Source: Hydrogenophilales bacterium
GTDB lineage: Bacteria > Pseudomonadota > Gammaproteobacteria > Burkholderiales > Thiobacillaceae
Assembly (NCBI GenBank): GCA_023258975.1
Contig: JAHFRD010000020.1
Location: 1-55,428 of the forward strand
DNA: 55,428 nt
Reading direction: 5' to 3'
This document shows, one piece after another, positions 33,835 through 53,634 of this stretch. The position numbers and the translations under genes were made by a program. A model generated the notes under the pieces. That model was not told where the DNA came from, did no database searches, and saw only the letters and a list, made by a program, of their open reading frames with translations. How positions within the stretch are numbered: the first letter of the stretch is position 1; the number at the start of each line of letters is the position of its first letter.

Positions 33835-33850
33835 TGGCATGAGTTGTGCT
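33835..33850 (+). promoter_or_regulatory. Sigma-54-type promoter of the PEP-CTERM gene
   Basis: TGGCATGAGTTGTGCT places GG and GC exactly 10 bases apart, as in the -24/-12 consensus TGGCAC-N5-TTGCW, with one mismatch in each half. Transcription would start near 33861, about 75 bases before the ATG. PEP-CTERM genes are known targets of PrsK/PrsR/RpoN. Confidence 0.65.
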
Positions 33851-33934
33851 TATGGTTGTGCACCGCGCAATGCGATGGATCGTTTACAGAGCTGTGCCGA
33901 CCTTATGACCGAAGTCTCGATAGGAGTGACTGTG

Positions 33935-34708
33935 ATGAAACGCAAGATTTTGAATAGCCTGGTTGGCGTGGCCATGCTGGGTTCCGCAGCTAGTGCCAAT
34001 GCTTTCTTTTTCTCATCCACATCTGATCTCAACGGTACCACCGTGGCCGTGAGCGGACTTGATACCAACCCGAGCAACAATTTCAATATGAGTTTTACGC
34101 TGAAGTCGGGTGACAAGATGGATGTCGACATCTTCTCCGAGGCATACCATTTGTATGCAACCGGGGGCCTTGGTTTTGAGTACGACCCAACACACGCGGG
34201 CCTGGATTTTGTCAGGAATTACACGGACAGGCAGGTTTTCGCTGGCGTGATGAACGTGTCTACGACGGGTACGACGCCGGATATCATTGACTACGCGACC
34301 ACCACCGGCATCTTGGGTGGTACCGTCTCGGTCTCTTACGATGGTACGTTCTCGGATTTCCCGTTGCTCGGCGTTTCCGGTACGGGGGCTGGTACATTCA
34401 ATATGACATGGGGCTACAACGGTACGACCAAGGTTCTTGGATTTACCATGACGGAGTCCGGTCTTAGCGGTTGGAGCGGTTTTGAGGCCGCGCTCCGCGA
34501 GTTTTCCAAGTCCATTACCGGTTCCTACCAGACTGCATTTGCCACGAAGGCGTACATGGGTGCTACCACGCTGACCCTGGGTGGGAGTCCTACCGCTTCG
34601 ACTGATACCACTACTTTCAAGGTACAGGCTGTCCCCGAACCTGCCGCCTTGGCATTGCTGGGTATCGGCTTTGCTGGTCTTGGCTTCATGCGTCGCCGTA
34701 AGGCTTGA
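33935..34708 (+). CDS. PEP-CTERM sorting domain protein
   Basis: This 257-residue exported protein has a signal peptide (MKRKILNSLVGVAMLGSAAS…, cut near ANA), a beta-rich, Thr/Gly/Ser/Asp-rich body, and a C-terminal sorting signal of VPEPAALALLGIGFAGLGF plus MRRRKA. The PEP motif, short hydrophobic helix and basic tail are what exosortase XrtA cleaves. The mature protein is probably released to the surface or exopolysaccharide matrix. ATG 33935 was chosen because AGGAGTGAC lies upstream and the signal peptide follows directly. There is no enzyme motif. In flocculating betaproteobacteria such proteins promote aggregation. It has a sigma-54-type promoter in front and a strong terminator behind. 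Confidence 0.88.
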   Translation: MKRKILNSLVGVAMLGSAASANAFFFSSTSDLNGTTVAVSGLDTNPSNNFNMSFTLKSGDKMDVDIFSEAYHLYATGGLGFEYDPTHAGLDFVRNYTDRQVFAGVMNVSTTGTTPDIIDYATTTGILGGTVSVSYDGTFSDFPLLGVSGTGAGTFNMTWGYNGTTKVLGFTMTESGLSGWSGFEAALREFSKSITGSYQTAFATKAYMGATTLTLGGSPTASTDTTTFKVQAVPEPAALALLGIGFAGLGFMRRRKA

Positions 34709-37512: not shown

Positions 37513-38715
37513 ATGCAAGCCCCCACACCGTTTTCAGAAAAATCATGCCGTAGGGCACTACTTGGCGGCACGATTCGCTACCTGCTATTGGCAACCTTGC
37601 TGGCAGTACTGACGGGCTGTGCCCTTATTCCGGGTACGCATACCTACGAGATGCGCGAGCAATCGTCGGTGTCGTTGCCGGTGAAACAGGCCGACGAGGT
37701 AGTTCCCGGCCATGTCAAGGTCAAGGCCATCACCGCCGAGTTGATCATCGATATGGATAAGGCGCAAAAAACCAAGGCACCGGTGAGCAGGGGCGGGCAA
37801 GACAGTGCCACGACCAAGCCCGTGGATACGCCGATGGCCGATTACAAAATCGGCCCTGGCGACATCCTGAACATCACGGTATGGGATCACCCCGAATTGA
37901 CGATCCCCGCTGGTCCGTACCGTACCGCCGACGTATCTGGCAATCTGGTGACCGAGGACGGCACAATTTACTACCCCTATGTCGGTGTCATTCAAGTGGT
38001 GGGCAAGACCGCGCGCCAGGTGCGCGACTTGCTGTCGCAAAAACTTTCCAAGTACATAGAGAAAGTGCAACTTGACGTGCGCATCACCTCCTACCGCAGC
38101 AAGCGTGTCTATGTGGTCGGCGAGGTCAAGGTGCCCGGTCAACAGGAAATCACCGACGTTCCCGCCACCATCCTGGATGCGGTAACCCGCGCCGGCGGAT
38201 TTACGGTGGACTCCGATCACAGCCAGGTACTGCTCACGCGGAGTGGCACCACCTGGCGGGTGGACTTGCAGTCTCTGTATGAAAACGGTGACATTGGACA
38301 GAACGTCAAGTTGGAGCCTGGTGACATCGTCAACGTGCCGGATCGCTCGCTCAACAAGGTATTCGTGCTGGGTGAAGTGCAGAAGCCCGGCTCCTATTTC
38401 ATGAACAAGAAGCGCATTACCCTGGCCGAGGCGCTGGCCGATGCGGGTTATATCAACCAGTTCACCTCCAATCCGAGCTGGATCTTCGTGATGCGAGGCC
38501 AGACTGACAGTCCCGAGTTATTCCACCTGAATTCCAAGTCACCCGATGCCTTGGTGCTGGCGGATCGCTTCCCCCTGCGCCCACGAGACATCGTTTATGT
38601 CGACGCCGCCGAAGTGGCGCGCTGGCAACGTGTGATCAGCAATGTGCTGCCCACCGCCACCATGCTGAATACCATCAGCGGTATCAACTACCCGCTGTTT
38701 GGTGGTCGCCAGTAA
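37513..38715 (+). CDS. wza: Outer-membrane polysaccharide export lipoprotein (Wza-like)
   Basis: This 400-residue lipoprotein has the lipobox LLAVLTGC (Cys near residue 36), after a longer than usual basic N-terminus. The polysaccharide-export domain (YKIGPGDILNITVWDHPEL, VTEDGTIYYPYVGVIQV) is followed by two SLBB domains (VYVVGEVKVPGQ, VFVLGEVQKPGSY). It forms the octameric channel that passes the polymer through the outer membrane, working with the Wzc-like protein at 38788. The start ATG has AAGGAAC upstream. It is 268 bases after wzb, a gap that may contain its own promoter. Confidence 0.92.
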   Translation: MQAPTPFSEKSCRRALLGGTIRYLLLATLLAVLTGCALIPGTHTYEMREQSSVSLPVKQADEVVPGHVKVKAITAELIIDMDKAQKTKAPVSRGGQDSATTKPVDTPMADYKIGPGDILNITVWDHPELTIPAGPYRTADVSGNLVTEDGTIYYPYVGVIQVVGKTARQVRDLLSQKLSKYIEKVQLDVRITSYRSKRVYVVGEVKVPGQQEITDVPATILDAVTRAGGFTVDSDHSQVLLTRSGTTWRVDLQSLYENGDIGQNVKLEPGDIVNVPDRSLNKVFVLGEVQKPGSYFMNKKRITLAEALADAGYINQFTSNPSWIFVMRGQTDSPELFHLNSKSPDALVLADRFPLRPRDIVYVDAAEVARWQRVISNVLPTATMLNTISGINYPLFGGRQ

Positions 38716-38787
38716 TGCATCACTTGACCTAACTGCGTAGCCAGCCAGCCGCAGACAACAGATAACAACTCAGCCACAGCCAACCTT

Positions 38788-41019
38788 ATGTCCGCAGACC
38801 AGATCAGCACCGTGCCCAACGTTCTCACAGAGGAAAGTGAAGACGAAATCAACCTGGGTGAAATCCTGGCCACGTTGCTGGAATACAAGTGGCTGATTGC
38901 CACGGTCACCTTCTTGTCCACCCTGCTTGGCGTTGCCTGGCTGTTTATCGCCACACCAACCTACCAGGCGAATGCTTTGCTCCAATGGGATGACAAGATG
39001 GTTGGAGGTGGCGGGCTCGGCGCGCTCAAGGATATGTCGGCATTATTGGGGGGAGACGCCACCGCGACTGCGGGGCAGATTGAAATCCTCAATGCCCGCA
39101 TGATCCTCGGTCGCGTGGTGGACAAGCTCAAACTGGATATCCAGGCCACACCCAAATATTTTCCGCTCATCGGCAAAGCCTTGGCACGCCGTTATGACGG
39201 AAAGGACATCGCGCAACCTGTGTTGGGGTTCTCCAGCTACGCATGGGGCGGCGAACGGATCAAGGTGGAAACCCTGGAAGTGCCGAAGGCACTCGTAGAT
39301 GCGCAGATATCTCTGGTGGCGGGCAAAGGTGGTCACTATCAGGTTTTTGATGAAGACGACAAGATGCTGCTAGAGGGGCAGGTAGGCCAGCCAGCCGTCA
39401 AGCGTGAAATGAAGCTGTTCGTCTCACAGTTGATTGCCAGGCCGGGAACCCAGTTCACCCTAGTCAAACAACTTCAGCAAGCCGTCATCGACGACATGCA
39501 GGACAAGGGAGGCTACTCGGTCAAGGAGCGAGGCAAACAGTCGGGCATCATCGAAGTAACACTCAAACATTCGGATGCGGCACTGCTGGCTGTGATACTG
39601 GATGAAATCATCAACGGTTATGTGCGCCAGAACGTGGAATACCATACCGTCGAAGCGGAAAGAACCCTCAAATTTCTCGATACCCAACTGCCTGGCCTGA
39701 AAACCCAGATGGAGAACGCCGATTCCGCCTTCAAGCAATATCGGCAGAGCAAGGGATCCGCTGATCTTGCCCTGGAGACCCAGGGTGTACTGACTTCCAT
39801 TGTCGATGTCGACAAGCAAACCGTTCTGTTGCAGCAGCAGCGGGACGAGCTACGGCAGCAATTCACTTCGGAACACCCGCGCATGCAGGCCATGGATTCC
39901 CAGATCGCGCGACTCAAGGCCAAGCGCGCTCAACTGGATGGCAGTGTTGCCCGCCTGCCCGCCGAGCAGCAGGCTGCGCTACGTCTTCAGCGTGATCTGG
40001 AACTTGCCACCAAGCTCTATACGGAGTTGCTCAACAATGCCCAGCAACTGCGCGTTTCCAAAGCGGGCGCTGTGGGTGAGGCTCGCATCATTGACGCTGC
40101 CGCCGTCGCCAGCAGACCCGTCTCTCCCAAGGGTCCGTTGATTCTGGCGGTTTCCCTTTTTCTTGGTCTGCTGCTCAGTGTCTTCGTAATCTGGGTAATC
40201 CGTTCCCTGCGGGTGATGGTGGAAGACCCCGACAAGATCGAAAAACAGATCGGCTTGCCGGTGTATGCGACGATTCCGCACAGCAATACTGAGGTGACGC
40301 TGGCGCGCGACATCAAGACCGGGAAAAAGAAAGGTGAGTTGCTTGCCATCGACTACCCCGAGGACGATGCTGTGGAAAGCCTGCGTAGCCTGCGCACCAC
40401 CATTCACTTCGCTTTGCTGGATGCGGACAAAGGGTCGTTGCTCATCACCGGCCCCAGTCCTGATATCGGAAAAAGTTTCATTTCAAAAAATCTGGGCGCG
40501 GTGTTGGCCCAGTCCGGCAAGCGGGTGGCCATTGTCGATGCGGATTTACGCAAAGGTCACATTCACCGCGAGTTCGGCATGCAGCGCGAAATTGGTGTGT
40601 CGGAATATGTCAGCGGTACGGCCAGCCTGGGTGAGATCGTCAAGCCGACGACGGTACCGGGGTTGTCTGTGGTCACCACCGGCCAGCGCCCACCCAATCC
40701 ATCGGAATTGCTGATGCATGCCCACTTTGGTGAACTGTTGGAACAACTCGGCGATCTGTTCGATATCCTCATCGTCGATGCGCCACCCATCCTGGCGGTT
40801 TCCGATGCCGCCATCATCGGCCGCCATACCGGCGCCACCCTCATGGTTGCCCGCGCCGGCAAGCACCCCGTCCGCGAAATCGAACAGGCGGTCAAACGAC
40901 TCAATCAGGCGGGTGTGCAGGTCAAAGGCTTTGTATTCAACGATATGGATACCACGCGACAGCGTTATCGCTATGGCTACCACGGCTACGTCTACAGCTA
41001 CTCCTACAAGGAAAAATGA
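38788..41019 (+). CDS. wzc: Polysaccharide co-polymerase / bacterial tyrosine kinase (Wzc-like)
   Basis: This 743-residue inner-membrane protein has a Wzz chain-length domain flanked by two helices (about residues 35-55 and 450-470), and a long periplasmic coiled-coil region between them. The cytoplasmic BY-kinase domain has Walker A GPSPDIGKS, Walker A' VAIVDADLRKG and Walker B DILIVDAPPI. The C-terminus is a tyrosine cluster, YRYGYHGYVYSYSY, the autophosphorylation site whose phosphate is removed by Wzb. It sets chain length and couples polymerisation to export through the Wza-like channel. The stop overlaps the next open frame. Confidence 0.93.
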   Translation: MSADQISTVPNVLTEESEDEINLGEILATLLEYKWLIATVTFLSTLLGVAWLFIATPTYQANALLQWDDKMVGGGGLGALKDMSALLGGDATATAGQIEILNARMILGRVVDKLKLDIQATPKYFPLIGKALARRYDGKDIAQPVLGFSSYAWGGERIKVETLEVPKALVDAQISLVAGKGGHYQVFDEDDKMLLEGQVGQPAVKREMKLFVSQLIARPGTQFTLVKQLQQAVIDDMQDKGGYSVKERGKQSGIIEVTLKHSDAALLAVILDEIINGYVRQNVEYHTVEAERTLKFLDTQLPGLKTQMENADSAFKQYRQSKGSADLALETQGVLTSIVDVDKQTVLLQQQRDELRQQFTSEHPRMQAMDSQIARLKAKRAQLDGSVARLPAEQQAALRLQRDLELATKLYTELLNNAQQLRVSKAGAVGEARIIDAAAVASRPVSPKGPLILAVSLFLGLLLSVFVIWVIRSLRVMVEDPDKIEKQIGLPVYATIPHSNTEVTLARDIKTGKKKGELLAIDYPEDDAVESLRSLRTTIHFALLDADKGSLLITGPSPDIGKSFISKNLGAVLAQSGKRVAIVDADLRKGHIHREFGMQREIGVSEYVSGTASLGEIVKPTTVPGLSVVTTGQRPPNPSELLMHAHFGELLEQLGDLFDILIVDAPPILAVSDAAIIGRHTGATLMVARAGKHPVREIEQAVKRLNQAGVQVKGFVFNDMDTTRQRYRYGYHGYVYSYSYKEK

Positions 41020-41108: not shown

Positions 41109-41630
41109 ATGCAAACTCCCCCGCCAGAGGCCGCGCGCCCTTGGTACGTCTGCCAGACCAAGCCTCGGCTGGAAATCAAGGCGGTGACCAAACTGCAAGA
41201 GCAGGGCTATGAGGTGTACCTGCCCATGCTGACCCATTGGGAGCGGAAAAAAGGCGCCTGGCGCAAGACCGAGCAGGTCATGTTTCCCCGCTACGGTTTT
41301 GTGCGCTGTGGTCAGCGAGACCAAAGCCTCGCTCCCATCCGCAGCACGCCAGGCGTCACTGGTTTGGTACGCTTCGGCGGTGATCCCGCCACGCTGAATG
41401 ATGAAACCCTCGCGACAATCCGCGCTTTGGCGGAACAGAGTGAACGTGAACAGGGTGTCGAAGCCGGGCCATTCGCGGCCGGTATGCCTGTCGCGGTCGC
41501 TTATGGCCCCTTGAAAGGTCTTACCGGAATGGTTTCCGATGTGGCGGATGAGCGTGTCGCGGTGCTGCTAACGCTGCTGGGTCGCGAAAAACGCATCGTG
41601 ATGCCTGTGAACCAACTCAGCACTGTCTGA
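41109..41630 (+). CDS. NusG paralogue, RfaH-type transcription antiterminator
   Basis: This 173-residue NusG-family protein has an NGN domain (RPWYVCQTKPRLEIKAVTKL, MFPRYGFVRC, STPGVTGLVRFGG), a linker rich in acidic residues and a KOW-type C-terminal domain (GPLKGLTGMVSDVADERVAV). The NGN segments resemble E. coli RfaH closely (MFPRYGFV against LFPNYLFV, TPGVTGLVRFG against TRGVSHFVRFG). RfaH-type factors join RNA polymerase at ops DNA and suppress termination in long polysaccharide operons. Such a site is present at 43832. The frame is open from ATG 41016, which overlaps wzc, but that would place a hairpin within the coding region; ATG 41109 leads directly into the NGN domain. Confidence 0.85.
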   Translation: MQTPPPEAARPWYVCQTKPRLEIKAVTKLQEQGYEVYLPMLTHWERKKGAWRKTEQVMFPRYGFVRCGQRDQSLAPIRSTPGVTGLVRFGGDPATLNDETLATIRALAEQSEREQGVEAGPFAAGMPVAVAYGPLKGLTGMVSDVADERVAVLLTLLGREKRIVMPVNQLSTV

Positions 41631-41743: not shown

Positions 41744-43195
41744 ATGACGCAGCCCACTCAATCCCGATCCGTCCAGTCGCTGATGGATTCCAGTGGTGTG
41801 CGCTTCGGCACCAGCGGCGCGCGTGGTCTGGTTATCGACATGACTGACGAAGTCTGTTTCGCTTATACCTCGGCATTCCTGCAAGTCACCGACGCTCAAC
41901 CAGGCAGCCGCGTGGCGCTAGGCATGGATCTGCGCCCGAGCAGCCCCGGCATTGCCGCCGCCTGCGCGGCCGCCATTCAGCAAGCCGGCCTGGCGGTCGA
42001 TTACTGTGGATCGCTTCCCACGCCGGCATTGGCCTATTACGCCCAGGAGCAAGGCATCCCCGCCGTCGTGGTGACCGGCAGCCACATCCCCTTCGATCGC
42101 AACGGCATCAAGTTCTATCGCGACACTGGCGAAATCACCAAGTCGGATGAAGCCGGCATCGCCACCGCCGAGGTGGGGCTCCCCGAGCAAGGATTGAGTA
42201 CCCCGTTGCCGGCAATCAACCCCGCCGCCCGCCAACTGTATCTGGATCGCTATCTGGCCTTCTTTCCGCACCGGGCGCTGGCCGGCATGCGCCTCGGCTT
42301 CTATGAACATTCCAGCGTCGCGCGCGATTTACTGACGGAATTGCTGGAAAGACTTGGCGCCGAGGTGATCTCCCTTGGGCGCACCGATGAGTTCACCCCC
42401 ATCGACACCGAGGCCGTCAGCGAAGCCGACGTCCGGCAGGCGCATAACTGGGCCGTCGAGCACGGCTTCGACGCCATCCTGTCCACCGACGGCGACGCGG
42501 ATCGTCCACTGATCGGAGACGAACAGGGCAACTGGTTTCGCGGCGACATCGTCGGCCTCCTGTGCGCCCGCCACTTGGGCGTCGAAGCGCTCGCCACCCC
42601 GGTCAGCTGCAATACCGCAATCGAAAAATCCGGCGTATTCAAGCAGGTCGTGCGTACCCGTATCGGTTCACCTTATGTGATCGAAGCCATGCAACAACTG
42701 GCCGCATCGGGTGCCCGCAGCATCGCCGGCTTTGAAGCCAACGGCGGTTTCCTGTTGGGCAGCAACCTGAATAAAGAAGGTCGCGCTCTGAACGCCCTGC
42801 CTACCCGCGATGCCGTGTTGCCAATGCTGACGCTGTTGGTCAGCGCGCGGGAGTCGGGGGTCAAGCTCTCGCAATTGGCCGCTGGCCTGCCATCACGCCA
42901 TACCGCCAGTGACCGACTGCAATCCTTCGCCAGTGAGCATAGTCATCGCCTGCTGCAACAACTGGCGTCATCACCATCAGCCCGGTCCGGATTGCTGGGT
43001 ACGTTGTGTGGCGTGCCTATGGAAATGAATCAAACCGATGGCCTGCGCATCACTTTCGCGAACGGAGAGGTCATCCATCTACGCCCCTCGGGCAATGCCC
43101 CGGAACTGCGTTGCTATGCCGAGGCTGACAGCCAGGATCGCGCCGCCAAGCTCGCGGTCGAATGCCTGCGCCGCGTCAAGGCCCTGGAGGGCTGA
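41744..43195 (+). CDS. Phosphomannomutase/phosphoglucomutase
   Basis: This 483-residue enzyme of the alpha-D-phosphohexomutase family interconverts hexose 6- and 1-phosphates; in this locus it most likely makes mannose 1-phosphate for GDP-mannose. It shows SGVRFGTSGARGL, the phosphoserine loop VVTGSHIPFDRNGIKFY (catalytic Ser), the Mg loop STDGDADRPL, the sugar-binding GFEANGGF and the phosphate-binding RPSGNAPELRCY. ATG 41744 has AGGA nearby. No mannose-1-phosphate guanylyltransferase (manC) gene is in the window, so GDP-mannose needs a gene elsewhere. Confidence 0.88.
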   Translation: MTQPTQSRSVQSLMDSSGVRFGTSGARGLVIDMTDEVCFAYTSAFLQVTDAQPGSRVALGMDLRPSSPGIAAACAAAIQQAGLAVDYCGSLPTPALAYYAQEQGIPAVVVTGSHIPFDRNGIKFYRDTGEITKSDEAGIATAEVGLPEQGLSTPLPAINPAARQLYLDRYLAFFPHRALAGMRLGFYEHSSVARDLLTELLERLGAEVISLGRTDEFTPIDTEAVSEADVRQAHNWAVEHGFDAILSTDGDADRPLIGDEQGNWFRGDIVGLLCARHLGVEALATPVSCNTAIEKSGVFKQVVRTRIGSPYVIEAMQQLAASGARSIAGFEANGGFLLGSNLNKEGRALNALPTRDAVLPMLTLLVSARESGVKLSQLAAGLPSRHTASDRLQSFASEHSHRLLQQLASSPSARSGLLGTLCGVPMEMNQTDGLRITFANGEVIHLRPSGNAPELRCYAEADSQDRAAKLAVECLRRVKALEG

Positions 43196-43250
43196 TTCCA
43201 GATGACCCATCAAGCAGCCGCGACGGGCGTTCTATTTGAGTTCGCGCAAC

Positions 43251-43300
43251 TTGAACCTTGCTCCAACCTCGCATACCATCCGCGTTCAAATCTTGAACGC
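43251..43300 (+). promoter_or_regulatory. Promoter and palindromic operator of the EPS regulator gene
   Basis: TTGAAC (43251-43256) and TACCAT (43274-43279) have a 17-base spacer. The perfect palindrome GCGTTCAA-ATC-TTGAACGC (43282-43300) then covers the predicted start site, and the ATG is six bases further. A degenerate copy, GTTCGCGCAACTTGAAC, overlaps the -35 element. The layout suggests self-repression by the MarR-type protein. Confidence 0.6.
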
Positions 43301-43305
43301 ACACC

Positions 43306-43644
43306 ATGACCCCGGCAGAGCAAGCCCACCTCCGCATTCTCAAGATCGTTGATGAAGAGCCCGAAATCAGCCAACGGCAACTCGCCGAACGGCTCGGAGT
43401 CAGCCTGGGCAAGGCCAACTATCTGCTCAAAGCCCTACTGGATAAAGGCCACCTCAAGGCGGGCAATTTTCTGCGAGCTGAAAACAAACTCAAATATGCC
43501 TATCTGCTCACTCCTGAAGGTATCAGGGCAAAACTGCAACTCACCCGTAGCTACCTGGCCAGAAAAGAGCAAGAGTACGTCGTCATGAAGGCGGAAATTG
43601 AAGCCATGCGCGTTGAATTGGCGGCGCAGGACGAACGGGTGTGA
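43306..43644 (+). CDS. MarR-family EPS-associated transcriptional regulator
   Basis: This 112-residue winged-helix protein has the recognition region in ISQRQLAERLGVSLGKANYL and the wing in KAGNFLRAENKLKYAYLLTP. A C-terminal coiled coil (EQEYVVMKAEIEAMRVEL) probably dimerises it. It is the short MarR-type regulator that accompanies exopolysaccharide loci in many proteobacteria. A perfect palindrome sits over its own promoter, and the gmd operon with an ops site starts 300 bases downstream. Confidence 0.88.
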   Translation: MTPAEQAHLRILKIVDEEPEISQRQLAERLGVSLGKANYLLKALLDKGHLKAGNFLRAENKLKYAYLLTPEGIRAKLQLTRSYLARKEQEYVVMKAEIEAMRVELAAQDERV

Positions 43645-43831
43645 ATTTTCCGGATAACGACTAAAGTCTGCGCGGCAAATAGTCTCAACTGCCTGTCTAA
43701 CAGGCGGACAAACAATAATCCCTCCGGCAATGAACCAGAGTGAATAAATGGCGGGGAGACCATTCCCGGCCAGCAGATGAAACAACAAGCGGAAAATCGC
43801 ACCATGTGCTGAATGAATAAGCATTCCGGCT

Positions 43832-43844
43832 GGGCGGTAGCGTG
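43832..43844 (+). promoter_or_regulatory. ops-like element in the leader of the gmd operon
   Basis: GGGCGGTAGCGTG is identical to the core of the E. coli ops (JUMPstart) element recruiting RfaH. It lies about 100 bases before gmd on the coding strand, the normal place. A hairpin, ACGCAGA-TT-TCTGCGT (43867-43882), and a TTTTTT tract near 43900 follow. Confidence 0.75.
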
Positions 43845-43944
43845 TCTGATGGACGTAACGCTAAGGACGCAGATTTCTGCGTGAACCTGTTCATGTTCCT
43901 TGAGTTTTTTGCCTGACTAACAGCTAAACAGTGTTCCCCCCCCC

Positions 43945-45039
43945 ATGAGCATACCCAAGAAAACTGCCCTTATTACCGGCGTCACTGGCCAGGACGGCGC
44001 CTATCTCGCTGAATTCCTGCTCAACAAGGGCTATGAAGTCCACGGCATCAAGCGTCGTACCTCGTTGTTCAACACCGACCGCATCGACCATCTTTACCAG
44101 GATCCGCACGAAACCGGTCGCAAGTTCATCCTGCACCACGGCGATCTTACCGACAGTTCCAGTCTGATCCGCATCATCCAGCAGGTGCGGCCCGACGAGA
44201 TCTACAACCTGGCCGCCCAATCCCATGTCGCGGTGAGTTTCGAGGAACCCGAATACACCGCCAACTCGGATGCCCTTGGTGCCCTGCGCATCCTGGAAGC
44301 CATTCGCATCCTTGGCCTGGAGAAGAAAACCCGCTTCTACCAGGCCAGTACCTCGGAACTTTTTGGTCTGGTTCAGGAAATCCCGCAGAAGGAAACCACT
44401 CCCTTCTACCCGCGCAGTCCATACGCGGTGGCCAAGCTCTACGCCTACTGGATCACGGTCAACTACCGTGAGGCGTATGGCATGTATGCCTGCAACGGCA
44501 TCCTGTTCAACCACGAAAGCCCGGTACGTGGTGAAACCTTCGTCACCCGCAAGATCACCCGCGCACTGGCACGCATCAGACTCGGCCTGCAGGACTGTCT
44601 ATTCCTCGGCAATATGGATGCCAAGCGCGACTGGGGCCATGCCAAGGACTACGTCGAAATGCAGTGGCTGATGCTGCAACAGGAAAAAGCGGAAGACTTC
44701 GTCATTGCCACCGGTGTGCAGTACTCGGTGCGAGACTTTATTGACGCCGCCGCCAAGGAACTTGTCATGAGCATCCGCTGGGAAGGCCAGGGGATTGAAG
44801 AGAAAGGCCACGACGCCACCGGCAAGGTCATCGTCGCGGTCGACCCGCGCTATTTCCGCCCCACCGAAGTGGAAACCCTGCTCGGCGACCCCGCCAAGGC
44901 CAAGTCCAAACTGGGCTGGACACCCCGGATCACGTTCGACGAACTTGTCGCGGAAATGGTGCGGGAAGACCTCAAGGCCGCCGAGCGCGACGAACTGGTC
45001 AAGAAGCACGGCTACAAGGCCATGGATTACCATGAATGA
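43945..45039 (+). CDS. gmd: GDP-mannose 4,6-dehydratase
   Basis: This 364-residue short-chain dehydrogenase-type enzyme converts GDP-mannose to GDP-4-keto-6-deoxymannose, the first step to GDP-fucose. Visible features are the NADP loop [31 protein letters not shown], the active-site segment ASTSELFG (catalytic Thr) with [15 protein letters not shown] (Tyr-x3-Lys), and [17 protein letters not shown]. It is the first gene of the sugar-nucleotide block and overlaps fcl by eight bases. Confidence 0.96.
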
Positions 45040-46024
45040 AACCATGGCCATGAATCCTGATATCTATGTAGCCGGTCATCGCGGCATGGTTGGTTCCGCC
45101 ATCATCCGTATCCTCAATGGCAGGGGCCAAAGCAACATCATCACACGTACCCACGCCGAGCTCGACCTCACCAACCAGGCCACCGTGCGTGCCTTCTTTG
45201 AAGAGGAAAAACCCGACCAGGTCTACCTCGCCGCCGCCAAGGTTGGTGGCATCCATGCCAACAACACCTATCCGGCCGAATTCATCTACCAGAACATGAT
45301 GATCGAGGCGAACATCGTCCATGAAGCCTGGCGTGTGGGGGTGCAAAAGCTCCTGTTCCTCGGCAGCAGTTGCATCTACCCCAAACTCGCCCCGCAGCCC
45401 ATGTCCGAGGACGCCCTGCTCACCGGCACCCTGGAATCCACCAACGAGCCTTACGCCATCGCCAAGATCGCCGGCATCAAGCTGTGTGAGTCCTACAACC
45501 GGCAATATGGCCAAAGCCACGGCACCGACTATCGCAGTGTCATGCCGACCAATCTTTACGGCCCGGGCGACAACTATCATCCGGAAAACTCCCACGTCAT
45601 CCCCGCCCTCATCCGCCGCTTTCATGAAGCCAAGATCAACGGCGCGGAAAGTGTCGTGATCTGGGGGACGGGAACGCCCATGCGCGAGTTTCTTTATGTG
45701 GACGACATGGCCGAGGCCAGCATCCACATCATGAATCTGGACAAGGCCACTTACGAAGCGAATACCCAGCCGATGCTCTCCCACATCAACGTCGGCACCG
45801 GCGAGGACATCACCATCCGCGAACTCGCCGAAACCATGGGCCAGGTCATCGGATACAGTGGTCGCATTGAATTCGACCCTAGCAAACCAGATGGCGCTAC
45901 AAGAAAACTCCTGGACATTTCCCGTTTACACGCCCTCGGCTGCCGTGCCAAGGTGGGCTTGGAGGAAGGGCTGACTCGGGCTTATATGGATTATTTGGCA
46001 GTGCGGATTGCCAACCACTCATAA
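45032..46024 (+). CDS. fcl: GDP-L-fucose synthase
   Basis: This 330-residue epimerase/reductase makes GDP-L-fucose from the product of Gmd. It has the NADPH loop [12 protein letters not shown], the segment [18 protein letters not shown] with catalytic Ser and Cys, [15 protein letters not shown] (Tyr-x3-Lys), and the proton-donor His of [15 protein letters not shown] 45032 overlaps gmd; ATG codons at 45044 and 45050 are possible alternatives because the nucleotide-binding strand begins at IYVAGH. The pairing gmd-fcl defines a fucose supply. Confidence 0.95.
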
Positions 46025-46129
46025 CCCAGAACCTGGCAGACGTCGCTGTTAACCAAACGGCCAGCTCTCCCAAGAAATTCACGCGCCGCAAACACACCCA
46101 TCCGATAAACCAAATTGATTGAATGCCCC

Positions 46130-47296
46130 ATGAAAATCGCCATCGCCGGCACCGGCTACGTCGGACTCTCCAATGCCATCCTGCTCGCCCAGCACAACGA
46201 AGTGGTCGCGCTCGACATCGTTCCCGAGAAGATCGAGATGCTCAACCGCAAGGTTTCCCCCATCGTCGACACCGAGATCGAGGACTATCTGAGCCACAAG
46301 CCGCTCAACTTTCGCGCCACGCTGGACAAGCGGGAGGCCTATGAGGGGGCGGCATTCGTCATCATCGCCACCCCCACCGATTACGATCCAGAAACCAATT
46401 ACTTCAACACCCGCACGGTGGAAGCGGTGATCCAGGACGTCAAGGCGATCAACCCGAAAGCGGTGATGATCCTCAAATCCACCGTCCCGGTCGGCTACAC
46501 CGCGAAGTTGAAAGCACAGCTCCACTGCGAAAACCTGATTTTCTCCCCCGAATTCCTGCGTGAAGGCAAAGCGCTCTACGACAACCTGCACCCCTCGCGC
46601 ATCATCCTCGGCGAGCGTTCCGAGCGCGCCGAGGCATTCGCCAACCTGCTCAGGCAAGGCGCCATCAAGCGGGACATCCCGGTGCTGTACACCGACTCCA
46701 CCGAAGCCGAAGCGGTCAAGCTCTTCTCCAATACCTACCTCGCCATGCGGGTGGCCTACTTCAACGAACTCGACACCTACGCCGCCACCCACGGGCTGGA
46801 TACCAAACACATCATCCAGGGCGTCTGTCTCGACCCGCGCATCGGCGAGCATTACAACAACCCCTCGTTCGGCTATGGCGGCTACTGCCTGCCCAAGGAC
46901 ACCAAGCAACTCCTCGCCAACTACCAGGATGTCCCCCAGAACCTGATGCGCGCCATCGTCGACTCCAACACCACGCGCAAGGACTTCGTCGCCGACAGTA
47001 TCCTCAAGCGCAAGCCCAGGATCGTCGGCGTCCACCGCCTGATCATGAAGAGCGGTTCGGACAACTTCCGCGCCTCCAGCATCCAGGGAATCATGAAGCG
47101 CATCAAGGCCAAGGGCATCGAGGTCATCGTCTATGAACCGGTATTGACGGAACCGGAGTTCTTCCACTCACGGGTGGTCAACGATCTGGCAGAGTTCAAG
47201 CGGCAATCCGATGTCATCGTCGCCAACCGCATCACAGACGACATCCGCGACGTGGCGGACAAGGTCTACAGCCGGGATCTGTTCGGTAGCGATTAA
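46130..47296 (+). CDS. ugd: UDP-glucose 6-dehydrogenase
   Basis: This 388-residue enzyme, the same length as E. coli Ugd, oxidises UDP-glucose to UDP-glucuronate with two NAD+. It shows the Rossmann loop [47 protein letters not shown], and the active-site cysteine in [17 protein letters not shown] 46130 leads straight into the Rossmann strand; the frame upstream adds only five residues. UDP-glucuronate feeds the epimerase encoded next. Confidence 0.95.
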
Positions 47297-47391
47297 AGCT
47301 ATACCCACCCCGCATCATTGCTAGGGATGCGAGGTGACAAAGTAAGTTCACCCTGCTCGCGTCCATTGACACAAACAGAAAGGTCAAACCA

Positions 47392-48402
47392 ATGAAAGTC
47401 CTCGTTACCGGCGCCGCCGGCTTCATCGGCATGCACGTCGCCCAACTCCTGCTCAAGCGAGGCGATGAGGTCGTCGGCATCGACAACCTCAACGACTACT
47501 ACGACCCCAAGCTCAAGCTGGCGCGTCTGGAACAGCTCAAGCCCCACCCCAACTTCAAGTTCGTGCGCGGCGACATCGCCGACCGAATGACGGTGGAAGA
47601 CCTGTTCGCCGCCGAGAAATTCAACCGCGTCATCAACCTCGCCGCCCAGCCCGGCGTGCGCTACTCGCTGAAGAACCCCTACGCCTACATCCAGACCAAT
47701 CTGGTCGGATTCGGCAACCTGCTCGAAGGTTGCCGCCACAACCATGTCGAGCACTTCGTCTACGCCAGCAGTTCCAGCGTCTACGGCGCCAACACCCACA
47801 TGCCGTTCTCGGTGCACGACAACGTCGACCACCCAGTCAGCCTCTACGCCGCCAGCAAGAAAGCCAACGAGTTGATGGCCCACACCTACAGCCACCTCTA
47901 CGGCCTACCGACGACGGGTTTGCGTTATTTCACCGTCTATGGCCCCTGGGGCCGCCCCGACATGTCGCCCTGGCTGTTCACCTCCGCCATCCTGGAGGGC
48001 CGCACCATCGACGTATTCAACATGGGCAAGATGCAACGCGACTTCACCTACATCGACGACATCGCCGAAGGCACCGTGCGCGTGCTCGACAAGATCGCCA
48101 CCCCCAACCCCGACTTCACCACCGACGCCCCCGACCCCGGCACCAGCTACGCGCCCTACCGCGTCTACAACATCGGCAACCACCAGCCGGTGGAACTGAT
48201 GAGCTTCATCAAGACCATCGAAGACTCACTGGGCCAGGAAGCGAAGAAGAACTTCCTGCCGATGCAGCCGGGCGACGTGGTGGCGACCTACGCCAACATT
48301 GATGACCTCAAGCGGGATGTGGGGTTCGAGCCGAAGACGGAACTGGCGGTGGGGATTGGGAATTGGGCGAGGTGGTACAAACAGTATCAAGGCAATAGTT
48401 AA
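47392..48402 (+). CDS. UDP-glucuronate 4-epimerase family protein
   Basis: This 336-residue NAD-dependent epimerase has GAAGFIGMHVAQLLL, DNLNDYYDPKLK, YASSSSVYGANTHMPF and the catalytic YAASKKANE (Tyr-x3-Lys). The substrate loops resemble LspL/CapI-type UDP-glucuronate 4-epimerases, which form UDP-galacturonate. Position directly after ugd supports that substrate. It is the last gene before a visible drop in GC content. Confidence 0.9.
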   Translation: MKVLVTGAAGFIGMHVAQLLLKRGDEVVGIDNLNDYYDPKLKLARLEQLKPHPNFKFVRGDIADRMTVEDLFAAEKFNRVINLAAQPGVRYSLKNPYAYIQTNLVGFGNLLEGCRHNHVEHFVYASSSSVYGANTHMPFSVHDNVDHPVSLYAASKKANELMAHTYSHLYGLPTTGLRYFTVYGPWGRPDMSPWLFTSAILEGRTIDVFNMGKMQRDFTYIDDIAEGTVRVLDKIATPNPDFTTDAPDPGTSYAPYRVYNIGNHQPVELMSFIKTIEDSLGQEAKKNFLPMQPGDVVATYANIDDLKRDVGFEPKTELAVGIGNWARWYKQYQGNS

Positions 48403-48589
48403 CAGGGTGTTGTAAAACGACGGTTATTCCCACCTTGGCCAAAAAAAATATCCACTGAGAGTTGAAATTGCGAGAAGTTACGACAAATGTTGCTTGTTTA
48501 TTGCGCAAATCCGGGTATTTCTTTGTGGTAGCCGAACAGATTTCGCCGCTGTCTCGCAACTTTCAATACCCTGCTAATGAGTATGTGAA

Positions 48590-49741
48590 GTGAGATTGCC
48601 TGGTATATCTTCTATTCTATTTGTGCTTGGTGTTGCAACTTTCCCGTTGTACATCATGCCAAGTGGCCTTCCTCAGGCATCGCATTTTGTATTGCTTTTG
48701 TTTGCAATAGTGTATAGCCGGGGTAAATCTGCCTGCCTGTCTGGTAATTTTGGCAACAGCTTTATAATATATTTTGCATTATATGTATTGGTAAGGCAAC
48801 TATTCTTTGTGCTGGAAACGTCCGGGGTAGAGTGGTTGATACCTGTGTTGTTTCTTTTTTTTAATCTTGTCGTGTATTTATCGGTCTATAGCTTCTTTGC
48901 TAATGGGCCAAATGTTGCTTATGGGAATCTTGCTATTGGCCTGACAGTGGCGCTTGTTGTTGCAATTGTGGGTGTATATGTAGCCGGGGTGTCTCTGATT
49001 AAGACGGATGATGCGATGGTACGCGCTATAGGCACATTCAACAACCCAAATCAATTAGCATACTTCTCCATATGTTCCGCCGGATTGGTGACTGTTCTGT
49101 TTGTGAATAGATATATAACATTGTTGGTTTTTATTGCGTTGTATATTTGTAGTGTTCTACTGGTCATGGTCTCTCTATCCAAAGCGGCGTTGATAGCAAT
49201 CTTGTTTTATTTGGTTATATTTTTGCGAAAAACTGGCACAAAGATGGTCGTGATATCGATATCCATAATAACTTTTGCACTATCTATGGTTGCATTTGGC
49301 CCCTCAGTCGATCTGTCAAATTTCCAGTTCTACCAGCGTCTGGAGGGGATTGGGAATGATTCGGACGACTCGGTAGAGGGGCGTGGAATGGGTCTGTTTA
49401 TGCATATTGATGAAAATATCATACTTGGCTGGGGCGAAGGATTTGTCAAGCTTACAGAGTTTGGTAAAGAAGTGCATTCGACACTGGGTAATATCCTGAT
49501 ATCATATGGCATAGTTGGCTTCATTATTTTTATGACAGCCATGTATTTCATTTTCTTGGGTCTACGTAAGCGGCACGGATTGGCTGTTGGGATCGCATTA
49601 TTTCTTCCAATGATGTTGTATGGGATTGCGCATAATGGCATTAGATTTAGTGTATTCTGGATATATCTGGCAATACTGAGTTCCATGGGATTGGTAGTTA
49701 AGGAGTTGCCGGTAAAGTTGACGGCTAACAAACCGCTATAA
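48590..49741 (+). CDS. O-antigen ligase/polymerase-like membrane protein (Wzy-like)
   Basis: This 383-residue protein has about ten hydrophobic helices and a large periplasmic loop (about residues 240-290) containing LSNFQFYQRLEGIGNDSDDS and EVHSTLGNILISYGIVGF. The His of this segment is typical of the Wzy/WaaL superfamily, which polymerises or ligates lipid-linked repeat units. Its place next to a Wzx-like flippase supports polymerase. The start (GTG 48590) is uncertain. Base composition is AT-rich compared with the genes before it. Confidence 0.78.
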   Translation: MRLPGISSILFVLGVATFPLYIMPSGLPQASHFVLLLFAIVYSRGKSACLSGNFGNSFIIYFALYVLVRQLFFVLETSGVEWLIPVLFLFFNLVVYLSVYSFFANGPNVAYGNLAIGLTVALVVAIVGVYVAGVSLIKTDDAMVRAIGTFNNPNQLAYFSICSAGLVTVLFVNRYITLLVFIALYICSVLLVMVSLSKAALIAILFYLVIFLRKTGTKMVVISISIITFALSMVAFGPSVDLSNFQFYQRLEGIGNDSDDSVEGRGMGLFMHIDENIILGWGEGFVKLTEFGKEVHSTLGNILISYGIVGFIIFMTAMYFIFLGLRKRHGLAVGIALFLPMMLYGIAHNGIRFSVFWIYLAILSSMGLVVKELPVKLTANKPL

Positions 49742-49767
49742 TAAGTTACAATATTAATGAGCAAGCC

Positions 49768-51054
49768 ATGATGTATAAGCCTCGGGCTATGAGGAGGTCA
49801 CTGGGGCCGGGGGTCGTAAGGGTGTCTGCCATACTGCTTGAATTGGCGGTGTCGCTTTTATTGGCTCGTATCCTTGGTGTGGTTGATTTTGGAATATTTA
49901 CTTATGCATTGGCCTATACTCAGATCGCTGTGGTGTTTGCTGCGTTTGGTAATCCTCTTGTGTCTACAAGGTATGTTGCTCACTACAAAGCGCTGAATGA
50001 TGGCGTTGGAGTTATGCATTATGTGCGATATATGCAGCGAAAGGTGGTAACAGTATTTGTTCTCGTGCTTACGTTGGTTATTGGAATTGCGTATTTGCTG
50101 GATAGATTGAATAATGATGCTTACTTTAATCCAATCTGCTTGTTTATGGTTGCTTTGCTCCCATGGGCTTTGATAAGGTTTCAGGCGGGATGTGTAGGAG
50201 GGGCGGGTTGGGTAGCGCGAGCCCAATTACCGGAGTACATTGTTCGACCTGTAATATTTCTCAGTGCGGTGCCGCTTGTTTATTGGTGGAATGATGGTGA
50301 AATATCTGTGCAAAGTGTGGTTGTTGTATACATACTGGGCACGGTTGCTGCGTTAATGATAGCAATTGCTTTAAATAAGAATGCAACTAAGTCGTTTGCT
50401 GGTATTGTCCAATTGGGGGGTGACGAAAAACAATGGCTTAAGAGTTCGTGGCTGCTAACCTTATTCGGCGGGGTGCAGATACTGGGTTCGCAAATTGATA
50501 TTATATTTCTGGCGATATACGAGCCACCGGATATGGTGGCGGTGTACAGGGTTGCCTATCAAATAATGTCAGCTGTTGGATTTGCGCTTACGGTTGTAAA
50601 TCTTTCCTATGCACCTCGCTTCGCTACCCATTACGCAAATAAAGATATCCGGTCAATGCAATCATCTGCAACGAAGTGTGCTCGTTTGGCGCTATTGGGT
50701 GTTGCTTTACCAGCTAGCATTGTACTTGTGTTCGGTGGCGATGTTATCCCATTAGCGTTTGGGAAGGCATACGTGAATTCAAACACGATTGCTCTCATAC
50801 TTATTCTGGGTTTAATGGTCAGCGCTGGGACTGGGTCAGTATCTACAATGTTAAATATGTCGGGCCATGAACGTGAAACACTATATTCCGCCGTGGCTGG
50901 TTTGTTGCTAGCTGGTATTCTTTGTATGGTGTTAATACCAGAATACGGCGCAATTGGTGCAGCTACCGCATCGGCAGTGTCTTTGTCTATTAAGAATATA
51001 TATTTGTACTCCCGCGCTCGTAAATTATTGGGCGTGCGTTCATTTGTCTTCTGA
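49768..51054 (+). CDS. Polysaccharide flippase (Wzx-like, MOP superfamily)
   Basis: This 428-residue membrane protein has 12 or so helices and the typical N-terminal pattern of oligosaccharide flippases: AILLELAVSLLLARILGVVD, FGIFTYALAYTQIAVVFAAF. It moves lipid-linked repeat units across the inner membrane. It starts 27 bases after the Wzy-like gene in the AT-rich segment. Assignment rests on topology and family look. Confidence 0.82.
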   Translation: MMYKPRAMRRSLGPGVVRVSAILLELAVSLLLARILGVVDFGIFTYALAYTQIAVVFAAFGNPLVSTRYVAHYKALNDGVGVMHYVRYMQRKVVTVFVLVLTLVIGIAYLLDRLNNDAYFNPICLFMVALLPWALIRFQAGCVGGAGWVARAQLPEYIVRPVIFLSAVPLVYWWNDGEISVQSVVVVYILGTVAALMIAIALNKNATKSFAGIVQLGGDEKQWLKSSWLLTLFGGVQILGSQIDIIFLAIYEPPDMVAVYRVAYQIMSAVGFALTVVNLSYAPRFATHYANKDIRSMQSSATKCARLALLGVALPASIVLVFGGDVIPLAFGKAYVNSNTIALILILGLMVSAGTGSVSTMLNMSGHERETLYSAVAGLLLAGILCMVLIPEYGAIGAATASAVSLSIKNIYLYSRARKLLGVRSFVF

Positions 51055-51064
51055 GGCATTGATT

Positions 51065-51835
51065 ATGTATCGCACTGCATTGTATTGCCAACTTGCTAAA
51101 ATGCTGTTGTTGTCCTGTGTTTTATTTGTTACAACGGATTCGGCGTTCTCTGGAACGCTGGTTGGCGTGTTCGACTGGCCAGTTCGAGATAAGTCCGCTT
51201 TCACGCTGACGCGAGTCACCGATAAAGATGGTATCCTAGAAAGGGCGTATGAGAGAAATGCCAAAGTACTATTAAGTATGAAGGGTTCGAGGTCAGACAT
51301 CTCCGATGCGAGCGGATGTTTTAGCTATGCAATCTGGAAAGATAGATTTGATATGGAGTCATCCGCCCGTATTATGGAATACTTTAATAAAGGTGTTATT
51401 GTTGGATTCTATGGGCCCGATGAGCCGCATGACTGGTCATGTGGGCCGACCTATAACGATTTAGGACGTATTTGCGATTACGTGCATGCAAAAATACCGG
51501 GCCTGCCATGTGGCTACAATGCTCCTCCCTTATGGATCAAAAAAGGTATTCGGGGAACGGGCAATATTGATTTCATAGTTAGGCAGGGTAACTTTCGGAA
51601 GGTTTCTGATTGGTCAAGTTGGGCTAAAGATATAATGAGCAACAAAAAATGGTTTGCTGGGAATATCTATCTGAGTGTTAATGGATATACCGGTAGCCCT
51701 GGCTCTTCCGAGGTAATCAAGGCAGTAAAAAGCCTTTGTGACGCAAAGCCGTCCGGTGTGTTGATATGGAAGTGGGATTATGTGTTGAATTTTGATATGG
51801 CGGAAGCGATTAGTTATTGTGCTAATGCTGATTAG
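51065..51835 (+). CDS. Secreted protein of unknown function, possibly glycosidase-like
   Basis: This 256-residue protein has a signal peptide (about 30 residues, cleavage near DSAFSG) and no membrane anchor afterwards. It reads like a small beta/alpha barrel: strand-like segments GTLVGVFDWP, KVLLSMKGS, VIVGFYGPDEPHDWSCGP, FIVRQGN, and GVLIWKWDYV at the end. The acidic pair in GPDEPHD lies where barrel-type glycoside hydrolases carry catalytic residues. Six or so cysteines could form disulfides. I do not recognise a named family. Its place between Wzx and two sulfotransferases suggests polymer trimming or modification. Confidence 0.7.
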   Translation: MYRTALYCQLAKMLLLSCVLFVTTDSAFSGTLVGVFDWPVRDKSAFTLTRVTDKDGILERAYERNAKVLLSMKGSRSDISDASGCFSYAIWKDRFDMESSARIMEYFNKGVIVGFYGPDEPHDWSCGPTYNDLGRICDYVHAKIPGLPCGYNAPPLWIKKGIRGTGNIDFIVRQGNFRKVSDWSSWAKDIMSNKKWFAGNIYLSVNGYTGSPGSSEVIKAVKSLCDAKPSGVLIWKWDYVLNFDMAEAISYCANAD

Positions 51836-51881
51836 CTTGAGGGTGATATGATTATCGCGGTTATTGTGGTAGAGAGTTGCT

Positions 51882-52712
51882 ATGTTGCCTAATGTACTGG
51901 GGATCGGGGTACAGAGAAGTGGCACGACCTGGTTGCACAATCAATTGGCGATGCACCCTGAGGTGTGCGTTCCAGACAAAAGGAAGGAAGTGCATTATTT
52001 TGATCGCTATTATGAAAATGGTATTAATTGGTATAAAAGCTTCTTCTCATGTGATGGTAAAGGGGGGAATGTAAGTTGTATCGCTGAAATAACGCCGATG
52101 TATATGTACGACCCCAATGTTCCAAAAAGAATACTAGATACTCTAGGGTCTGTACGTTTCATAGTAATACTCCGCGACCCTGTTGATCGTGCTGTTTCGC
52201 AATATCGATTAGCAAAGAGACAGTTTAACTTGCGGGAGGATTTCCGTGAATATCTGGAGGGCAACCCGGATGTACTTAAGCGCGGAATATATACGGAACA
52301 ACTAGATAACTATTTTAAATTATTCGCACCTAAATCGTTTTTGTTCCTTAGGTTTGAGGATGTAACGAGAAATCCAGCATTGATTTTTGATCAACTTTCC
52401 AGATTTCTAGATATATCGCGCATTGGATTTGACGAGGCTGCAGGAAAAGAGGTATCTAATGAAGGTTTTAGCCCACGCCTGGGTGGGCTATATGCCACTG
52501 GAAAAAAACTGGTTGACTATTTGCGTGATCACGATATGGATTATGCTGTCAATTTCCTTAAACGCATGAATGTTGGCGTATTGGCTGGTAGGAATAAAAA
52601 TAGGGTCAAAATAATGCCAAACGATTTGGAATTCCTGCGTAGCTACTATTGTACCGAGGTGGATCGACTGGAGGCAATGCTTGGCATTGATCTGTCTAAT
52701 TGGCGCCAATAG
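51882..52712 (+). CDS. Sulfotransferase family protein
   Basis: This 276-residue protein has a 5'-phosphosulfate-binding loop, GVQRSGTTWLHNQLAMHP, at the N-terminus and the 3'-phosphate-binding segment RFIVILRDPVDRAVSQYRLA at about residues 95-115. Both are hallmarks of PAPS-dependent sulfotransferases. FLFLRFEDVTRNPALIFDQL matches the central conserved block. It probably puts sulfate on a sugar of the polymer made by this locus. Confidence 0.85.
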   Translation: MLPNVLGIGVQRSGTTWLHNQLAMHPEVCVPDKRKEVHYFDRYYENGINWYKSFFSCDGKGGNVSCIAEITPMYMYDPNVPKRILDTLGSVRFIVILRDPVDRAVSQYRLAKRQFNLREDFREYLEGNPDVLKRGIYTEQLDNYFKLFAPKSFLFLRFEDVTRNPALIFDQLSRFLDISRIGFDEAAGKEVSNEGFSPRLGGLYATGKKLVDYLRDHDMDYAVNFLKRMNVGVLAGRNKNRVKIMPNDLEFLRSYYCTEVDRLEAMLGIDLSNWRQ

Positions 52713-52731
52713 CATACTTGTGGAGACTTCT

Positions 52732-53634
52732 TTGAGGCAAATCGTATACATTGCTGGTTATGGTAGAAGTGGGTCAACTATTGTTGAACGCATGCTGTCA
52801 GCAAATGAAAAAATTATTGGGCTTGGTGAGTTGGCATATATAAATGATAGTAATTATGCAGATTTGCTCTGGCCCAAGGCCGCCCAAGATCAATTTTGGC
52901 GAGAGGGGGAATGTATTCTGCGACTGCATGATAATGAACTGCGTCATGCTTCATTGTTGCAGTTACGGAATGAGTCAGTTGTATGGTCTTTCCTTAAAAT
53001 GCTTATCTTTTTTTCCACGGAATATCTCATATTTCAACATGGCTTCTTTACTCGTCTATCTTCCATAGTACCTGATAAGATTGAATATATAATAGATTCT
53101 TCCAAAACTGCCCGTGATAGATTTGGTAGGCCTCACGCATTGGCTGCGTCAACAGGCATGCCCGTCAAAATGATTCACTTGGTTCGTGATCCGAGAGGCT
53201 GTCTGGCCTCAATACGGAAAGGCTCTAATAATGAGATGGAGGGTCTGCCTTTTGGATCTCGCAAGGCCCTGACTATAAGAGTCTATGTTGGCTGGTTTCT
53301 ATCTAATATTTCGGCGCTGATTTATAGCAAGAGGTACGGTGTTGATTACTACCTTGCAGTACAGTTTGAGGCCCTGCTGTCTGATCCAGTCATGGAGCTA
53401 GCGAGGATCGGTAAGTACTTGGGTATTGATTTGTCTGCTGAGGCAAATAAGGTGATTAATAGTGAGCCAATTCCCCAAGCGCCGCAGTTTGCCGGAAATA
53501 GGCTTCGGTCTGCGACCACAATTAAAATTACTGCAACGTCGGTAACCGGTAATGCTGGGGGTTATTTGTCGAATCTTCTGTTTTGCATTCTTGGCGCGCC
53601 AATCATGTATTTAATGCGTAAGATTGCAAAATAG
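52732..53634 (+). CDS. Sulfotransferase family protein, second copy
   Basis: This 300-residue protein has the PAPS-binding loop IAGYGRSGSTIVERMLSA and the 3'-phosphate segment MIHLVRDPRGCLASIRKGS (about residues 145-165), plus YLAVQFEALLSDPVMELARI. It differs clearly from the neighbouring sulfotransferase, so the two probably modify different positions. TTG 52732 was chosen as start because GGAG lies seven bases upstream and the binding loop follows at once; GTG 52720 is an alternative. Confidence 0.82.
   Translation: MRQIVYIAGYGRSGSTIVERMLSANEKIIGLGELAYINDSNYADLLWPKAAQDQFWREGECILRLHDNELRHASLLQLRNESVVWSFLKMLIFFSTEYLIFQHGFFTRLSSIVPDKIEYIIDSSKTARDRFGRPHALAASTGMPVKMIHLVRDPRGCLASIRKGSNNEMEGLPFGSRKALTIRVYVGWFLSNISALIYSKRYGVDYYLAVQFEALLSDPVMELARIGKYLGIDLSAEANKVINSEPIPQAPQFAGNRLRSATTIKITATSVTGNAGGYLSNLLFCILGAPIMYLMRKIAK

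Follow-up and report, generated by a model that had tools for sequence, protein, structure and literature searches.

The locus studied here raises the question of whether an EPS operon of a betaproteobacterium could be governed by an ops signal together with a NusG paralogue encoded in the same gene cluster, and, if so, how such a paralogue would find its operon. The specificity of RfaH has been explained by four side chains that read two exposed bases of ops (PMC5995543), and the evolution of RfaH and its cis-encoded paralogues has been discussed in PMC7593976 and PMC13015549. The window, namely the whole stretch of 55,428 nucleotides from a Hydrogenophilales bacterium (contig JAHFRD010000020.1), contains both components (Table 1). 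Based on the comparisons described below, we propose, with a probability of roughly 0.7, that its leader is a JUMPstart-type signal for the recruitment of the local paralogue and the antitermination of the EPS operon.

Table 1. Positions of the leader elements and genes of the EPS locus in the window.
Feature	Position	Strand	Remark
ops element GGGCGGTAGCGTG	43832..43844	+	
Hairpin in front of ops	43807..43831	+	TGCTGAATG - AATAAG - CATTC(C)GGC(T)
Leader, MarR_EPS to gmd	43645..43944	+	
NusG paralogue, RfaH-like, beta KOW predicted	41109..41630	+	
MarR_EPS regulator	43306..43644	+	TIGR04176, 139 bits, cut-off 88
Inverted repeat GTTCAA-ATC-TTGAAC before MarR_EPS	43284..43298	.	possible operator
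Putative target operon, gmd to two sulfotransferases	43945..53634	+	
wza + wzc, upstream of NusG paralogue	37513..41019	+	

A preliminary description of this DNA, made from its letters, had claimed a 13-mer identical to the ops core, with fitting strand and position, and this is confirmed, as the window contains a single copy of GGGCGGTAGCGTG, on the + strand between MarR_EPS and gmd and 101 nt 5′ of the gmd ATG. The downstream block also reads as claimed, running from gmd (TIGR01472, 595 bits) through fcl-like, ugd, epimerase, wzy-like and wzx genes and an ORF to the two sulfotransferases, except that the wzy call falls under its Pfam cut-off (25.4 vs 31.7). No sigma-70-like promoter was found by a scan of the leader, the folding of the whole leader was not significant (z -1.28), and gmd lacks an SD match (0.6 kcal/mol). 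The hairpin at 43867-43882 (ACGCAG/CTGCGT), which together with a T tract had been regarded as a pause or termination site, does exist, but its role as a terminator was rejected, because the T run lies ~20 nt beyond it and a search of 43100-44100 gave no intrinsic terminator on the + strand.

The expectation that a match of this length would hardly arise by chance holds within the window, where GGGCGGTAGCGTG was present in 0/100 dinucleotide shuffles, but not genome-wide, where the bare 12-mer is ordinary. The 12-mer GGCGGTAGCGTG has 92 sites in 65 of the 117 family genomes, and within the genus (23 genomes) its 20 occurrences compare with 41 of the reversed control; since it is no commoner there than this control, testing by the bare motif's presence or absence was given up. 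The window's own genome has four other GGGCGGTAGCNT sites, among which that of L003 lies inside ORFs that are capsid-like by eye, and only C18 (15.1 bits) of the four appears in a model search of this genome. That the ops 13-mer is itself a chance match, as its ordinary frequency in the genus might suggest, is nevertheless very improbable, because the hairpin-ops combination is kept in related loci and the window element, itself inside the model, is unique in its genome, scoring 52.2 bits where the next-best site has 17.7. Judged by sequence comparison, therefore, chance is ruled out by conservation, that is, by the hairpin and by the recurrence in related loci, and not by the presence of ops alone.

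The recurrence was assessed in relatives of the window's paralogue, of which the best 80 of 473 confirmed were taken with flanks of up to 10 kb (1.06 Mb). These best 80 loci hold 34 exact ops 12-mers in 33 of the 80, with 34 on the strand of the paralogue and 0 on the opposite one, compared with 0/0 on the two strands for the reversed pattern and a mean of 0.27 (largest 4) for 499 permuted 12-mers in the same loci. Ops lies downstream of the paralogue for 33 of these 34 sites, and the one exception, that of L155, lies upstream of its own paralogue. No exact ops was found in 47 of the best 80 loci, some of them on short contigs, and of the 43 loci whose 3′ flank reaches 5 kb or more, ops is present in 22, while 21 do not have an exact one. 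Ops is invariant among these sites, which were collected by exact match; L116 and L148 have one-mismatch forms preceded by sequence of the window type or similar to it. Two sites, those of L160 (no hairpin, and 9.9 kb from the paralogue) and L170 (no clear hairpin adjoining ops), are probably chance occurrences and were retained in every count. The expected conservation of ops, in company with an RfaH-like paralogue, before EPS genes of relatives is accordingly borne out, including three loci (L111, L116 and L145) with ops directly before gmd.

Directly 5′ of ops lies an inverted repeat, the sequence of which is lineage-specific and the pairing of which is maintained by compensatory changes; the preliminary description was right about ops in this leader but did not contain this conserved partner. 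The hairpin precedes most ops sites, and its 3′ arm typically stops 1 nt before ops. The arms are TGCTGAATG/CATTCGGGCA in the lineage of the window element, which is common to Accumulibacter, TGCGAAACA/TGTTTTGCA in Gallionella-like loci, and TGCCG/CGGCA in Crenobacter and several family genomes, while E. coli rfb (CTGGT/GCCAG) and waaQ (CAGGT/GCCTG) have the identical layout of hairpin, 1 nt and ops. The window hairpin has 8 pairs, a bulged C at 43827 and a U-U mismatch at its base, so that its gap to ops is 2 nt instead of the typical 1 nt. An element is also present in Crenobacter caeni (L161) and in Polynucleobacter (L180). Two EPS loci carry two hairpin-ops elements each, L112 at 13010 and 14482 and L116 at 4706 and 8832, the second of L116 ending in GTA, not GTG.

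For 14 window-type elements (those of the window, G030 and L136, and eleven sites from L107-L135), paired cells amount to 96.0% vs 87.4% in shuffles and doubly changed cells to 10 vs 2.8, with 0/500 shuffles reaching either value; pairs changed on both sides are matched by 12/500 shuffles, pairing falls to 25-49% when the partner is shifted by 1-3 columns, and the number of pair types was not significant, being reached by 158/500 shuffles. In a scan of 44 elements, stem length peaks where 1 nt separates the 3′ arm from ops, at 4.68 bp compared with 2.53 in shuffles (3.09 at most), with lesser peaks at 2- and 4-nt gaps, and 22 non-redundant elements give 4.14 vs 2.49 in shuffles at the 1-nt gap. 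The stem is lacking in 33 control ops 12-mers taken as chance occurrences, 32 from family genomes and 1 from the window's genome (2.21 vs 4.67, p = 2e-5). Single-sequence folding was no better than shuffles for the window element (z 0.09) and the G030 element (z -0.89); therefore, the hairpin rests on comparison. Since a U-G wobble is kept in 14/14 window-type elements, we infer that the hairpin acts as RNA rather than as duplex DNA.

The order of stem-loop, short gap, GGCGGUAGCGUG and downstream polysaccharide genes in the window is the layout of the JUMPstart RNA (RF01707), a conserved stem-loop known from a 2010 report that lists it for gammaproteobacteria (PMC2864571). Both have a hairpin, a short gap and GGGCGGUAGCGUG in a polysaccharide leader, whereas the hairpin sequence of the window is unlike that of JUMPstart. 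The RF01707 covariance score of the window is 21.0 bits (E 0.077), below the gathering value of 35, compared with 60 bits for E. coli rfb, and at gathering neither the window nor any of 17 further sources outside E. coli with an element gave a match. The window leader is a JUMPstart-type leader overlooked by Rfam's model at threshold. Among the literature matches listed (titles and abstract beginnings of open-licence literature), no treatment of ops or JUMPstart in betaproteobacteria was found, which is weak evidence of absence; as far as these matches show, the occurrence of hairpin-ops in EPS loci of betaproteobacteria that encode a paralogue themselves is new, as are the 18 sources (the window and 17 others outside E. 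coli) without an Rfam match at gathering and the unchanged ops beside divergent contact residues.

The NusG paralogue claimed for this locus is real, with a PF02357 match of 73.5 bits (cut-off 22.2), and the NusG/RfaH fold, and nothing further, is confirmed by Foldseek; a second in-frame ATG lies at 41016, and the genome has one further NusG match. Its best NCBIfam match is TIGR01955 (RfaH) at 100.8 bits, below the cut-off of 144.5, under which 4/4 tested close relatives (58-68% identity) also fall and above which 6/6 tested homologues of 33-39% identity score. Its scores also lie below the curated cut-offs of LoaP (57.8 vs 125 bits) and UpxY (80.2 vs 100 bits).

The RfaH-like NGN motifs that the protein had been credited with for reading ops fared less well. 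The E. coli RfaH residues contacting ops bases are K10, H20, R23 and R73 (PMC5995543), of which just K10 is kept in the window paralogue (as K18), with K28, E31 and P81 in place of the others; Q24 is kept, and positions 48 and 130 are Q and V. In the alignment of relatives, K10 and Q24 hardly ever change and H20, R23 and R73 are variable, and the lineage to which the window belongs (L105-L122, L125) has Q at position 48, except in L110, and V at position 130. An AF2 model of the window paralogue predicts a beta-barrel KOW and a NusG-like CTD (mean pLDDT 80.7, pTM 0.59), while helices are predicted at low confidence (blocks of pLDDT 36-67) in the CTD of the Gallionella homologue L150, which has E48, F130 and a hairpin-ops; hairpin-ops therefore accompanies both predicted CTD kinds. 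Given the changed H20, R23 and R73, Q48, V130 and the predicted beta KOW, the window paralogue is probably not fold-switching. It is not a standard RfaH. The window shares with the enterobacterial RfaH/ops system an ops of the same sequence within the leader of an operon for surface polysaccharide, a NusG paralogue beside the housekeeping NusG, a first gene without clear SD, and the kept K10 and Q24, but differs from it in these residues and in the predicted KOW, in the encoding of the paralogue inside the EPS locus and in its score below NCBI's RfaH cut-off.

These features bring the protein close to the monomorphic beta-RfaH homologues, the genes of which likewise adjoin the likely target operon and which have a predicted beta CTD and miss some ops-contact residues; these homologues are described as ops-independent, having been active in an E. 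coli reporter without need of ops (PMC13015549), whereas the window has an exact ops and a conserved hairpin. The hairpin-ops pause could serve the operon via the housekeeping NusG or leader folding, with the open, non-autoinhibited paralogue loading in cis without ops, as its predicted beta KOW, Q48 and V130, its changed H20, R23 and R73, the described ops independence of such homologues (PMC13015549) and the several paralogue genomes without a credible element would allow. We regard this as unlikely, because element and paralogue co-occur, every site in the best 80 of 473 loci shares the paralogue's strand, and a single such element, inside the paralogue's own locus, exists in the window's genome. 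The changed H20, R23 and R73 (to K, E and P), the predicted beta KOW in view of the ops-free activity reported for monomorphic homologues (PMC13015549), the 47 of the best 80 of 473 loci with no exact ops, the 7/16 paralogue genomes with no credible element, the single-sequence folding of the window element and the negative promoter scan of the leader are counted against the reading that we prefer, recruitment of the local paralogue by the leader.

The co-occurrence on which this preference draws was examined in the 117 family genomes, 16 of which have a paralogue, assigned by score, beyond the housekeeping NusG. The covariance model R1 was built on the window-type element, and the window and G030 elements, being inside it, match by construction; at E <= 1.9e-4 it hits 10 genomes, all within the 16 (p = 9e-11). 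One of the ten hits (G032), antisense in a coding ORF that is flagellar-ATPase-like by eye, is probably chance, leaving 9 credible genomes. The seven paralogue genomes without a credible element are G012, G018, G021, G031, G032, G040 and G041, among which G031, G040 and G041 are each <90% complete. Model hits in paralogue-free genomes (G106, G107, G097 and others) reach at most 24.0 bits and look like background; G114, at 24.2 bits and with no clean score gap to these, was accepted because its sequence matches the element of its lineage.

A MarR_EPS gene also travels with the system; the tie of ops to the paralogue stood as first described, but this gene was absent from that description. Among the best 80 of 473 loci, MarR_EPS homologues occur in 24 of the 33 with ops vs 5 of the 47 without, a contrast overstated because the loci differ in length. 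L111 has the window's order of paralogue, MarR_EPS, hairpin-ops and gmd, the order paralogue, MarR_EPS and hairpin-ops recurs in L107, L112, L114 and L118, and the element stands directly before MarR_EPS in G014, G027, G030 and G044. For MarR_EPS starts right after ops, the SD is weaker (n=9, median 0.4 kcal/mol) than elsewhere (n=25, median -0.9; p = 0.017), a weak comparison in which the starts were chosen by rule.

The constancy of ops beside varying contact residues could also mean that the paralogue reads the RNA hairpin in the manner of LoaP, with ops serving mainly as the pause and the hairpin type matched to the paralogue lineage. LoaP of Bacillota is a NusG paralogue tied to, and binding, a small leader RNA hairpin (PMC12691694), although that hairpin is of the UNCG type, no ops is described for it, the window protein scores far below the LoaP cut-off, and its binding to a hairpin is putative. 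On a quick protein tree of 30 rows, in which 41/86 inner branches are weak, the 7 hairpin classes need 6 changes, the minimum; the hairpin class follows the paralogue lineage as co-inheritance, which cannot alone show co-adaptation, for plain common descent would give the same matching. RirA RNA, the sequence of which holds a hairpin and ops, reportedly binds to E. coli RfaH together with RNA polymerase, but in dependence on ops and not on the hairpin (PMC6358824). Reading of the hairpin by the paralogue seems rather doubtful to us. Equally tentative is a two-part code, wherein the invariant ops would pause RNA polymerase and show the DNA loop and the lineage-specific RNA hairpin would be read by the matching paralogue. 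If this were true, E. coli RfaH would be a derived variant within a proteobacterial system linking the RNA-reading LoaP to the DNA-reading RfaH, and paralogues without fold switching could remain operon-specific via the hairpin.

For the preferred reading, recruitment of the paralogue and antitermination at a JUMPstart-type leader, we infer pausing, recruitment, antitermination and help to translation. The leader transcript of the gmd-to-sulfotransferase operon would form the hairpin, followed 1-2 nt later by ops, and RNA polymerase would pause in ops with the hairpin just behind. The paralogue, whose gene lies in this EPS locus 2.2 kb further upstream, could then join the paused complex and remain on RNA polymerase instead of NusG, so that transcription would run through the long operon, and the translation of SD-poor genes such as gmd would probably be helped too. 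The stem lies ~12 nt from U11, comparable to the ~11 of hairpin-stabilised pauses. The E. coli ops has been described as a backtracking (class II) pause (PMC5995543), such pauses are described as biochemically distinct from hairpin pauses (PMC11001881), and RfaH has been reported able to counter hairpin pausing (PMC6391919). The hairpin could keep RNA polymerase paused long enough for the factor to join, or the factor could read it.

The betaproteobacterial sugar-polymer cluster has the enteric RfaH signal together with a conserved hairpin and a nearby RfaH-like protein, which suggests that RfaH-type control reaches further and takes more forms than the E. coli model implies. Ops is identical beside NusG paralogues in which most of the four contact side chains differ. 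The hairpin 5′ of ops is maintained by compensatory change in betaproteobacterial loci and is arranged likewise in E. coli rfb and waaQ. Whether it contributes to pausing or recruitment thereby becomes testable, as does the source of specificity in a paralogue that is probably open and does not switch folds.

Several further observations were made in these loci. The perfect inverted repeat directly 5′ of the MarR_EPS start in the window may be the operator of MarR_EPS, and in related loci, too, TTGAAC precedes the MarR_EPS start in several cases. The EPS region of the window also encodes, further upstream, a PEP-CTERM sorting-signal protein at 33839-34708 (TIGR02595). In L136 (Ectothiorhodospira), NusG paralogue matches at 847-1302 and 10001-10486 flank a wza-wzc-wecA block. 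An ORF that by eye resembles an RNase of the metallo-beta-lactamase fold lies directly 3′ of the paralogue in the close relatives L040, L041 and L043, and a TPP riboswitch (68.6 bits) is present at 16836-16930 of L050.
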